A DNA stretch of 32,714 nt from a bacterium (GTDB lineage Bacteria > Bacteroidota > Bacteroidia > Chitinophagales > Chitinophagaceae), in NCBI GenBank assembly GCA_027364635.1, contig DAHXOZ010000016.1, positions 1 to 32,714 of the forward strand, read 5' to 3'. Position 1 is the stretch's first letter; every line of letters begins with the position of its first letter. Positions 23,389 through 27,583 of this stretch are shown here, one piece after another. Position numbers and translations under genes: made by a program. A model generated the notes under the pieces. It made no database searches, had not been told where the DNA came from, and was given only the letters and a program-made list of their open reading frames with translations.

Positions 23389-25350
23389 TCATTCAACGGG
23401 TTCAAGGTCTTTTTTATTCAGCCATCCCCGGGTAGATTGTCCTTTACTGTTTACATAAACCACATATACAAACCCATTTTCCTCAGCCTGGGGAGTTAAG
23501 ACCACATCTTTTCTCGGATTTAGGAAAACAGGTTTTATTTTTCCCTGGTCAGGCCCAAAATGAAACCAGGTTTTATTAATAACGGTATATTTTTTTGAAC
23601 TTTCGTTAGTTGAAGTTGTGTTTTCAGTTGTAGAATTTTCAGTTACTGCGCTTTTGGTTGTTGTGTTATCCGGAGCAGGATCATTATCTGTTTTATTTGC
23701 AGGACTTTTCATTTGTAATGTTTTAGCCTGAGCCTCTTTGGAAGCATTGCTGACATTAATATTAGAAATGGAATTGGTTATTTTATTTTTACTATAAGAA
23801 TGATTGTCTTTTAAATAAAACCAATAATAGGCAGCTCCGCCAAGCATCAGAATGATAATTGCCGCAATAACAGGAACGACCATTCTTTTTCTTTTCTCTT
23901 CAGGCAAAGGAGCAGTTGCTTCAAAAAACTCGTGTAAATTTTCTTTTTTTGCGGCCAGGATTTTTTCCGTTTCGCCGGTATTTATACTTTCTGTTTCTGT
24001 ATCCAAGGGCTGTTTTTGCCTGATTAATTTATAATCATTGAAACTTAAATTGTATTGGTTTGTTTTTATAAAATTTGCCGAAATAAAAAAACTGTTATTC
24101 GAAAAATCCTTTTCGTCTTTGCGGTCTTTCCATTTATTTAAAATCTCTGTTAGTTCGTTAAATTCAAAATCGTCATTTTGAGAATTGTTGTCGGATAAAG
24201 ATTCATTAATTGTCTTCTTTTTGGATTTTCCCCATTTACAAAACCAGATATTTTCTGAGGCCGTTTTTGATTTATTAAAAAAAAGGATGCCGGCACCGGA
24301 GTAAACCGATTCGGTTTTAGCTGCCAATGTAATCACTGCTTCGAGGCTGGAATGATCTACTATATTTTTTCTTGTTTTTATTATCCCGGGATTATCACTT
24401 TTCAATAATACCTGTGGAACAAGAATAACAGCACGACCTCCGGGCTTAAGCGTTTCAACTATTTCTGTTAATAACAAATTTTCTTTTTCCAGTTTACCTG
24501 TATCGGTATTATTTTTTTCTGTAAGTGAATTGTCGTTTGAAAATATTAAACTCGAAATAATGAGTGTCGGATTTTCTGTAAGCAATTTGTTTTCGGTAGT
24601 TGCAGAACGGATTTTAGGATTTTTAATTCCGTGAAGCACCAGGTTCATAGCAGCCAGGCGTAGTTTGATTAAATCAGATTCAATGCCGTTTATTTTCGAT
24701 TCAATAAAAATATTTGAAGGTGATTGCCCAACAGAATTAATATTATTGTAAAGGTGCCTGTAAATATTAATTAAAAGGTTTCCATTTCCAACTGATAGAT
24801 TTAAGATCGCATCTTTTGTTTCCGGCTCAGCAATAGAAACCATTAACCTGCAAATGTACTCCGGTAAAAATTCCTGTTCTTTTTGGGCGGATACTTTTGA
24901 TTTATCAAATAGATATTCAATAATGTAACCCTGGCTTATTTTATCGCTTGTTTCTATGATATTGATAATTTCAATAGCATTGAAGATCAGCTTTGGCGTT
25001 GGGTCTATCAATAATGGCGCTTTGAAAAAATCACTATACAAGGCATTAAGATTTGCATAATTCTTCATCAAATCAATCACGCCATGTTCTTTATTAAAAA
25101 GCTGCTGAATTTCTCTTGCGTTTAGTTTTTGTAATTTACTCCAGGTAAATTCTTCAATTTCTTTTGTGTAAATAAAATTATCAGCACCTGCAGTTTTTAC
25201 TCTTTGATGTATTAATTCCCAGTCGTCTAATTTTTTAATGAAAAAAAGATAACTGATAAGGTCAAGAAGAGCCAAAGGCCTTAAATCGCTAACCGGCCAG
25301 CAATTATTCCATTTTTCATCAAGTTTTTTTTGTAAATGTGGTGTAAGCAT
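23389..25350 (-). CDS. HsdM-like (type I methyltransferase fold) protein fused to a TM helix and a C-terminal SH3-like domain; probably catalytically inactive
   Basis: 653 aa; HsdM-like N-terminus, NGIESDLIKLRLAAMNLVLHGI, ETLKPGGRAVILVPQVLL; TM VVPVIAAIIILMLGGAAYYWFYL after KRKR; SH3-like C-terminus YTVINKTWFHFGPD...NGFVYVVYVNSKGQSTRGWLNKKDLEPVE. Confidence 0.8.
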   Translation of the reverse strand: MLTPHLQKKLDEKWNNCWPVSDLRPLALLDLISYLFFIKKLDDWELIHQRVKTAGADNFIYTKEIEEFTWSKLQKLNAREIQQLFNKEHGVIDLMKNYANLNALYSDFFKAPLLIDPTPKLIFNAIEIINIIETSDKISQGYIIEYLFDKSKVSAQKEQEFLPEYICRLMVSIAEPETKDAILNLSVGNGNLLINIYRHLYNNINSVGQSPSNIFIESKINGIESDLIKLRLAAMNLVLHGIKNPKIRSATTENKLLTENPTLIISSLIFSNDNSLTEKNNTDTGKLEKENLLLTEIVETLKPGGRAVILVPQVLLKSDNPGIIKTRKNIVDHSSLEAVITLAAKTESVYSGAGILFFNKSKTASENIWFCKWGKSKKKTINESLSDNNSQNDDFEFNELTEILNKWKDRKDEKDFSNNSFFISANFIKTNQYNLSFNDYKLIRQKQPLDTETESINTGETEKILAAKKENLHEFFEATAPLPEEKRKRMVVPVIAAIIILMLGGAAYYWFYLKDNHSYSKNKITNSISNINVSNASKEAQAKTLQMKSPANKTDNDPAPDNTTTKSAVTENSTTENTTSTNESSKKYTVINKTWFHFGPDQGKIKPVFLNPRKDVVLTPQAEENGFVYVVYVNSKGQSTRGWLNKKDLEPVE

Positions 25351-25564
25351 AATTTAATTGAAACGATTATTGTTATAAACAAAAACTCTGCTACAATTTT
25401 TATACTACCAATATCCGCTATTTCAAAACCGCGAAAAGTTAAAAAATTAATAAAAGGTTAACTGGGCCGACAGCTTAACATTAGTGAATATCAGAATATA
25501 AGGGAGATTAAATGTAAACTTTTATCTTCAATTTTTTTGCATTTCGTATTACTTACTTTTAGTC

Positions 25565-25577
25565 AGTAAACAAACAA
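25565..25577 (-). promoter_or_regulatory. Recurrent intergenic motif TTGTTTGTTTACT, copy 3
   Basis: Exact 13-mer; points to the HsdM-like gene (start 25350) within the divergent region shared with ClC. Confidence 0.5.
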
Positions 25578-25789
25578 ATAGTCTAAATTTTTATTTTGAG
25601 TGTAGCGTGATTAACTATTAAATCTAACGAATTATCACCTGACGGTTGTTTAAGAATTTGTTTATTTTCTTAACGAAATGTTGTAATTCTCTGCTGTTCT
25701 TTGGTTGCAGCAGTTTCTTTTTATCATATGTTTTTTGTAATTACCTTCGCGCATATTTTAACCTAAAATTTGTTTTCCTGAGCTAAAAA

Positions 25790-27583
25790 ATGTACGAAAA
25801 GCTGCTCAAATATATTGAAGTAATCAATCAATGGCGTAAACGAAGAATTTCCAATTCTAATTTTTTAATTATAGCGGCTTCGGTGGTAGGTATTATGGGA
25901 GGTATCGCTTCCTCGGTATTAAAAGAATTAACGCATTATGTAGCCAGTTTCCTGATAAATGATCTTCATTGGAAATATAAGTTATACCTCTATTTATTCT
26001 TTCCGCTTATTGGTATTTTACTTACGGTTTTATATATCCGGACATTTATCAGGAGAAGTAAATTTCAACATGGAATTTCATCTATCATTTACAATATTTC
26101 GCATAATTCAAGCAAACTTGATTTTCACAATATTTATAGCCAGGTTATTTCCAGCGCACTCACCGTTGGCCTTGGCGGTTCTGCCGGATTAGAAGCACCC
26201 GCTGTTGCCAGTGGTGCAGCAATCGGCTCCAATATTGGACGCTTTTTTGGATTGAATTACAGGGAAACCACGCTGTTACTCGCCTGTGGCGCTGCTGCCG
26301 GAATTTCAGGCGCCTTCAACAGTCCGGTGGCAGGAATGATCTTCGCCATTGAAGTGATCATGCCGGAATTTTCTATACCTGCAGTTATTCCTTTATTAAT
26401 TGCCTCGGCTTTTTCTTCTGTTATTTCTCAAATGATTTATAAAGAGCCTCTTTTTGTTTTGGTTGCACGCGGCGGCTGGCTCATGGATGCTTTTTGGTAT
26501 TATATTGTTTTGGGTATAATTGTTGGAATTTATTCTGTCTATTTTAGCAAGTTAAATACCAGGTTGGGAAATGTTTTCGACAAAATAAAAAATCAATACA
26601 GTAAGGTTTTAATTGGAGGTATTTCATTAGGAATCATGATCGCTTTGCTTCCTGCACTATATGGCGAAGGATACATCACGATTCAAAAATTATTGGACGG
26701 TAATTTTAAATCATTGCTTGCCAATAGTCTCTTTTCAGAATACCAGGATTTGTCATGGGCACTTTTAATATTTGCCATTTTTACGCTCATCGGCAAAACT
26801 TTTGCTTCTATTATTACGATGGGAAGTGGCGGTAATGGCGGCATGTTTGGCCCGAGTGTGGTTGTAGGTGGATTATTAGGTTTTGTTTTTTCATTTGGTA
26901 TGAATCAAACAGGGATGGTGCATTTAAACATTACCAATTTTATCATCGCCGGCATGGCTGCCTCAATCAGCGGTGTAATGCATGCGCCATTAACAGGGAT
27001 TTTTCTGGCCGCGGAGATCACCGGCGGTTATGTAATGATGGTGCCTTTAATGATGGTTTCGGCCATTTCTTATTTTATTAATAAGGGAATTGTAAAATAT
27101 TCAATTTACACTTTTGATCTTGCCGCACATGGAAATTTGGTATCACAGGAAAACAAAGACCATGGAGTTTTAAGAAGAATTAAATTGAAATATCTTATCG
27201 AAAAAGATTTTGTAATTCTTAGGCCCGATGATACACCTTCCAGCAGGAGCGCCGATATTGTTCATACCACAAAAAATATATTTCCGGTAGTTGATAAAGA
27301 TGGGGTATTAGCCGGAGTTTTATTTAGCGATCATTTACTGGAGCTGCTCGTGAGTAATAAACCGGAAGACCGAAACCGCCCTATAAGAGATATTGCCCAA
27401 CCTCCGGACAGGGTGATCAATATAAATACCTCTATGTATGATGTGATGCAAATAATGGACAGCCAGGATAAACGTATTCTTCCTGTTACAGGCGCTAATA
27501 ATGTTTACCTTGGATTTGTTACCAAAAACGGCATCTTTAATAAATACCGGCACATTTTAATGCGGCAGGGAAATACGTTGTAG
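25790..27583 (+). CDS. ClC-family chloride channel/transporter with C-terminal CBS pair
   Basis: 597 aa; GGSAGLEAPAVASGAAIGSNIGRFF, FNSPVAGMIFAIEVIMPEF, GSGGNGGMFGPSVVVGG; CBS region from ~residue 465. Confidence 0.93.
   Translation: MYEKLLKYIEVINQWRKRRISNSNFLIIAASVVGIMGGIASSVLKELTHYVASFLINDLHWKYKLYLYLFFPLIGILLTVLYIRTFIRRSKFQHGISSIIYNISHNSSKLDFHNIYSQVISSALTVGLGGSAGLEAPAVASGAAIGSNIGRFFGLNYRETTLLLACGAAAGISGAFNSPVAGMIFAIEVIMPEFSIPAVIPLLIASAFSSVISQMIYKEPLFVLVARGGWLMDAFWYYIVLGIIVGIYSVYFSKLNTRLGNVFDKIKNQYSKVLIGGISLGIMIALLPALYGEGYITIQKLLDGNFKSLLANSLFSEYQDLSWALLIFAIFTLIGKTFASIITMGSGGNGGMFGPSVVVGGLLGFVFSFGMNQTGMVHLNITNFIIAGMAASISGVMHAPLTGIFLAAEITGGYVMMVPLMMVSAISYFINKGIVKYSIYTFDLAAHGNLVSQENKDHGVLRRIKLKYLIEKDFVILRPDDTPSSRSADIVHTTKNIFPVVDKDGVLAGVLFSDHLLELLVSNKPEDRNRPIRDIAQPPDRVININTSMYDVMQIMDSQDKRILPVTGANNVYLGFVTKNGIFNKYRHILMRQGNTL

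Follow-up and report, generated by a model that had tools for sequence, protein, structure and literature searches.

The 32,714-nucleotide stretch of DNA analysed here (the window) contains, between a MOSC gene and a ClC gene, an uninterrupted open reading frame that starts with ATG and encodes a large composite protein (Table 1). No HsdS, no HsdR and no restriction nuclease family was found in the window. The original prediction had described a continuous 653-residue frame with these two flanking genes and with neither HsdS nor HsdR in the window, and all of this was recovered, the unbroken frame being conserved in the orthologues as well.

Table 1. Features of the fusion gene and their coordinates in the window.
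Feature	Residues	Coordinates	Strand	Basis
Whole gene: putative pseudo-HsdM, transmembrane segment and predicted SH3-like ectodomain	1-653	23389..25350	-	ORF, Pfam, orthologues
HsdM-type N-terminal helical domain	1-140	24931..25350	-	dN/dS 0.07-0.14, conservation comparison
N6-adenine-methyltransferase-like core	141-445	24016..24930	-	Pfam N6_Mtase E=1.7e-28, HsdM structures
Motif I remnant NLSVGNGNLL, SAM-binding loop, partially retained in the clade	184-193	24772..24801	-	Alignment
Degenerate motif IV, SLIF where the catalytic NPPF is expected	267-270	24541..24552	-	Alignment
KRKR and single transmembrane helix	486-512	23815..23895	-	Hydropathy; AF2 helix 492-516
S/T/N-rich low-complexity linker, weakest constraint	517-585	23596..23802	-	Composition, dN/dS
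Predicted SH3-like ectodomain, subfamily common to kinase ectodomains	586-653	23389..23595	-	HMM/hhalign, AF2, Foldseek

The N-terminal two thirds of the protein resemble the modification subunit of type I restriction-modification systems (HsdM; PF02384), with its N-terminal helical domain and its Rossmann methyltransferase core. The Pfam match to PF02384 covers residues 141-441, and residues 1-456 match the PADLOC model MTase_I (E=7.7e-53). The best sequence matches in the PDB are the HsdM structures 3ufb and 2okc (about 1e-13 to 1e-12), and a Foldseek search with the AF2 model returned type I M subunits at the top (2okc, E=2.9e-15); the full-length model, built from an alignment of 7 rows, is of low confidence (mean pLDDT 56). 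A match to the NCBIfam antiphage model MADS2 was discarded as generic methyltransferase similarity, since it reached 37.8 of 720 bits, far under the cut-off. Apart from generic methyltransferases, no PADLOC model scored meaningfully.

Residues 490-512 (nucleotides 23815-23883) form the sole strong hydrophobic segment of the protein by hydropathy, and they are preceded by KRKR at 486-489. The linker that follows consists of S, T and N for 50% of its residues; matches to EbpS, GltJ and PknB over about residues 466-585 were set aside, as they involve this low-complexity linker and the transmembrane segment only. The last 68 residues are modelled by AF2 as an all-beta barrel with a mean pLDDT of 89.6. 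SH3 and SH3b folds predominate among its Foldseek matches, with probabilities up to 1.00 and TM scores up to about 0.7, none of them with an E-value below 0.001. None of the 13 members of this SH3-like subfamily matched an SH3 Pfam model, and a PDB sequence search with the domain gave no match; to judge from its sequence, it constitutes an uncurated subfamily. The HsdM-type region and methyltransferase-like core, the KRKR-flanked single helix and the low-complexity linker had all been anticipated from the DNA, and the similarity of residues 1-480 to N6-adenine methyltransferases, on which that reading depended, was found. The SH3-like domain had been anticipated as well, with limits slightly off (about 588-653 rather than about 586-653).

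The fused protein descends from an ordinary type I HsdM. Maximum-likelihood analysis of 33 rows placed the eight fused ones in one clade (100/100) with a long stem, nested inside HsdM; long branches were flagged by the program, and the fused group was a single clade in all 200 bootstrap trees. Its nearest soluble relatives have about 490-545 residues. Most of them belong to other genera of the family, and most have one HsdS-sized and one HsdR-sized gene downstream (loci L083, L086, L087 and L089 among others); in genomes G039 and G127, Pfam confirmed HsdS next to HsdM.

In contrast with these relatives, the fused proteins have lost the catalytic motif, a loss that had not been part of the original prediction. 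The PP of motif IV is missing in 9 of 9 fused sequences, which read SSLIF, SSLLI, SNLLP, ANLIF, SNLIF or SNLFF, whereas NPPF is intact in all 20 other HsdM of the same alignment and each of the 14 closest soluble relatives has ANPPF. Of the 7 rows compared, 4 keep N at residue 267 and 4 have lost the aromatic residue 270. Every fused protein also lacks the TPR motif around residue 162, and some lack the acidic residue at 224. In the m6A enzyme METTL16, changing the PP of NPPF to AA abolishes methylation, and changes in motif IV also lower nucleic-acid binding (PMC7927073). Since the PP and the TPR motif are lost in all members and acidic residue 224 in some, the fused protein is very probably catalytically dead. 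The glycine-rich motif I (GxG) is largely retained, and such a pseudo-methyltransferase could possibly still bind SAM. The HsdS-docking C-terminal tail, visible in the soluble relatives, has disappeared too, its place being taken in the fused proteins by the linker and the transmembrane segment. M subunits of type I enzymes no longer assemble with S once their C-terminal tails are deleted (PMC9613975).

The fusion is present in 7 of the 20 genomes of the genus, which as far as named records tell is Ginsengibacter, and these include the isolate Ginsengibacter hankyongi BR5-29. Outside the genus it was absent, at the threshold used, among 399 sampled genomes of the family Chitinophagaceae. The orthologues share from 65% down to 32% identity with the protein of the window, and all complete copies of the gene are intact. 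The fusion is no artefact of assembly, since it recurs in independent assemblies, and the possibility that it was unique to this one, on which the original prediction would have foundered, does not apply. Genome G012 has two versions of the fusion, one of them split across two contigs and endowed with two SH3-like domains; in the G012 copy at L034 (5153-6595), the two domains stand in tandem downstream of the transmembrane segment. A further copy lies on contig C181 of the window's own genome (L031). We considered a paralogue and rejected it: along its full length L031 shares 92% identity with the G007 locus, and it continues into the same region upstream of ClC, so that an allele of this locus from a second strain is the likelier explanation, and strain mixing or contamination of this metagenome-assembled genome is likely. 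Both G007 and L031 carry between the fusion gene and ClC a 414-residue transporter gene (ArsB-like by eye) that is missing in the window (25350-25790, against 11434-12675 in L042).

The neighbours of the fusion gene vary by species. MOSC adjoins it in the three closest genomes, and respiratory-complex-like genes do so in G. hankyongi; apart from MOSC in those three genomes, no conserved operon partner was found. In the window's own genome (an assembly about 85% complete) there is no match to HSDR_N, and HsdS is represented by one 186-residue frame only, on another contig. HsdS was not found in G005 and G015, two incomplete drafts that contain the fusion.

The fusion gene is under purifying selection, strongest in the N-terminal and SH3-like domains. 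Between orthologues, dN/dS is 0.17-0.22 for the whole gene, 0.07-0.14 for residues 1-140, 0.18-0.24 for the core, 0.10-0.20 for the SH3-like domain and 0.22-0.40 for the linker and transmembrane segment. The ranking of conservation is reversed with respect to soluble HsdM. Canonical HsdM is best conserved in its catalytic core (mean identity 0.76-0.82), whereas in the fused proteins the core reaches 0.40-0.47 and the N-terminal 70 residues score highest, at 0.53. The N-terminal domain has also acquired new clade-wide invariants, namely K13, C17, P19, S21, L23, D30 and L31. Together with the reversed ranking, these invariants make the pattern read as a new function rather than as decay.

Comparison with the sister genomes G007 and G001 revealed a mosaic divergence that spans positions 23595-25200 of the window. 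From about codon 50 to the linker, dS is about 1-2.7, a rough estimate near saturation, against about 0.75 for the first 100 codons, 0.63-0.70 for the SH3-like end and 0.33-0.84 for the neighbouring genes. This excess in mid-gene over the ends and the neighbours suggests that the middle of the gene was replaced by a divergent allele through recombination. Such a mosaic pattern is also seen in defence and surface genes.

Profile searches link the SH3-like domain to the ectodomain of membrane Ser/Thr kinases of Chitinophagaceae. An HMM of the kinase tails finds the tail of the window protein with E=1.8e-28; searching in the opposite direction yields 4e-31 to 3e-16, and profile-profile alignment by hhalign yields E=7.5e-35; on these comparisons, the two ectodomains are homologous. 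Of 150 sampled genomes from the family, 19 have the domain, which is rare in the rest of the phylum. In the loci read, the kinases adjoin an FHA-like protein, and the stretches that reach far enough add a RodA/FtsW-transpeptidase fusion and a PP2C phosphatase. At L036 (9606-17601), L037 (9137-17138), L095, L096, L099 and L100, the cluster comprises PP2C, a RodA/FtsW-transpeptidase fusion of about 1370 residues, the FHA-like protein and one to three SH3-like kinases. It looks like a counterpart of the mycobacterial rodA-pbpA-pknA/pknB cluster, in which pknA and pknB are grouped with RodA and PbpA (PMC3601408). Other architectures were also encountered. In kinases of the same family at L118, L119, L125 and L134, the SH3-like domain is not terminal and about 150 residues, possibly Sel1-like repeats, lie beyond it; L094 (5973-6767) encodes a 265-residue protein with apparently two or three transmembrane segments and a C-terminal SH3-like domain. 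The same domain is found on shorter proteins with lipoprotein-like N-termini.

The fusion and the kinases do not always go together. Among the 20 genomes of the genus, 7 have the fusion, 6 the kinase and 4 both, an association that is not significant (p about 0.08, calculated by hand). In the window's own genome (85% complete), a search for a kinase with the SH3-like ectodomain found none, and in G001 (99% complete) the fusion occurs without such a kinase.

Several known systems can be set beside the fused protein. Among them are the SH3-like kinases themselves, with their homologous ectodomain, single transmembrane helix, low-complexity linker and cytoplasmic N-terminal module; the fused protein differs from them in having inside a very probably dead methyltransferase and no kinase, and its gene lies outside the PP2C-RodA/PBP-FHA-kinase cluster. 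The PASTA kinases (PknB/Stk1/StkP) share the receptor layout of cytoplasmic module, transmembrane segment and ectodomain, and the related kinase cluster has RodA and a PBP as in mycobacteria (PMC3601408), but the ectodomain is here SH3-like instead of PASTA and the kinase is absent. A protein of Synechocystis likewise has an SH3b domain downstream of a transmembrane segment (PMC1262709); it is, however, a kinase from another phylum, likened by layout and not by SH3 sequence. With respect to HsdM, from which it has lost NPPF, TPR motif, docking tail and HsdS/HsdR neighbours, the fused protein has gained a membrane anchor and the SH3-like domain.

We propose that this protein crosses the membrane once and serves the envelope as a receptor or scaffold, with a dead methyltransferase on the cytoplasmic side and an SH3-like sensor outside, a reading that we hold to be probable, if not strongly so. 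The topology is predicted with the N-terminus inside and the C-terminus outside from the positive-inside KRKR, and the occurrence of the same domain on predicted lipoproteins supports its outside location; this agrees with the original prediction of a cytoplasmic methyltransferase-like part and a periplasmic SH3-like part. The ancestor would have been a soluble HsdM that belonged to a complete type I restriction-modification system; one copy of it, in the Ginsengibacter lineage, would have lost NPPF and the HsdS-docking tail and acquired an anchor in the membrane together with the kind of SH3-like domain that caps membrane Ser/Thr kinases in the PP2C/RodA-PBP/FHA/kinase cluster. This domain would bind a ligand in the periplasm, for which peptidoglycan or a protein of the cell envelope is the most plausible candidate, and ligand binding or clustering would be relayed via the single transmembrane helix to the pseudo-methyltransferase, possibly still able to bind SAM, whose rewritten N-terminal domain would offer a platform for docking. 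Counting against a receptor or scaffold, there is no constant gene partner and the SH3-like kinase is not an obligatory companion; the patchy distribution (7 of 20) and the fast-evolving cytoplasmic middle are also less typical of core envelope signalling.

Other explanations have to be weighed against this one. One could assume that the HsdM-derived domain holds DNA non-catalytically and without HsdS, anchoring the chromosome or incoming DNA at the envelope. HsdM subunits do contact DNA in type I complexes (PMC9613975), a single helix attached to a cytoplasmic domain of DNA-enzyme origin would suffice for such a tether, and the core is still constrained according to dN/dS. On the other hand, sequence-specific recognition in type I systems belongs to HsdS (PMC9613975), for which the docking tail is gone here, changes in motif IV of METTL16 lower the binding of nucleic acids as well (PMC7927073), and few folded parts of the fused clade are less conserved than the core, opposite to canonical HsdM; we regard a DNA tether as unlikely. 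We give an equally low rating to a membrane-posted defence or anti-restriction protein that would sense phage entry at the envelope or sequester real type I subunits. Its attraction lies in the descent from a defence enzyme, the patchiness within the genus and the allelic mosaic, with a mid-gene dS above that of the ends and neighbours; it has to contend with the lack of any restriction nuclease family in the window and of HSDR_N in the assembled genome, with PADLOC giving only generic methyltransferases at a meaningful score, and with G005 and G015, where the incomplete drafts have the fusion and no HsdS was found. The original prediction had offered a signalling, scaffold or defence-sensing role rather than restriction-modification. 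Its signalling or scaffold part is favoured by the loss of NPPF, the replaced docking tail and the kinase-type ectodomain; its defence-sensing part has no direct support and is kept in play solely by the patchy distribution and the fast mosaic evolution.

That the protein is an active adenine methylase, tethered to the membrane and endowed with an unusual motif IV, appears very unlikely to us. The mostly retained GxG of motif I and the N kept at residue 267 in 4 of 7 rows would suit it, but every member lacks the PP, 4 of 7 rows lack the aromatic residue 270, the TPR motif is lost and acidic residue 224 is lost in some, and no specificity subunit lies nearby. Scarcely credible, finally, is a functionless fusion that arose by chance or is decaying. 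The lost catalytic motif and the long branches could be taken in this sense, yet the selection data, with dN/dS around 0.2, disfavour it, the frame is intact in all complete members, the architecture is the same down to 32% identity and new clade-wide invariants have appeared.

Coming back to the receptor or scaffold, one could go further and suppose that in one genus a restriction-modification subunit has turned into a membrane receptor, its dead and possibly SAM-binding effector being joined to an ectodomain of the cell-wall-kinase type to form a non-kinase branch of envelope signalling. To this wider reading we lend almost, but not quite, as much belief as doubt. Each part is of a known kind. 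In the open-access literature, most subscription journals lying outside its coverage, we found no paper on a membrane-anchored or pseudoenzyme HsdM and none on the kinase SH3 cluster, nor the combination of a dead HsdM, a one-pass anchor and an ectodomain of cell-wall-cluster kinases. If true, the proposal would show clearly a component of a restriction-modification enzyme that has become a receptor or scaffold in the membrane, and the steps of the conversion could be read from the sequence, namely the loss of catalysis and of partner docking, the gain of an anchor and an ectodomain, and the new constraint. In Chitinophagaceae, the uncurated SH3-like ectodomain occupies the place of PASTA on PknB-type kinases, beside RodA-PBP, FHA and PP2C genes. 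It would make envelope sensing in Bacteroidota testable, with Ginsengibacter hankyongi as a cultured carrier of the fusion.
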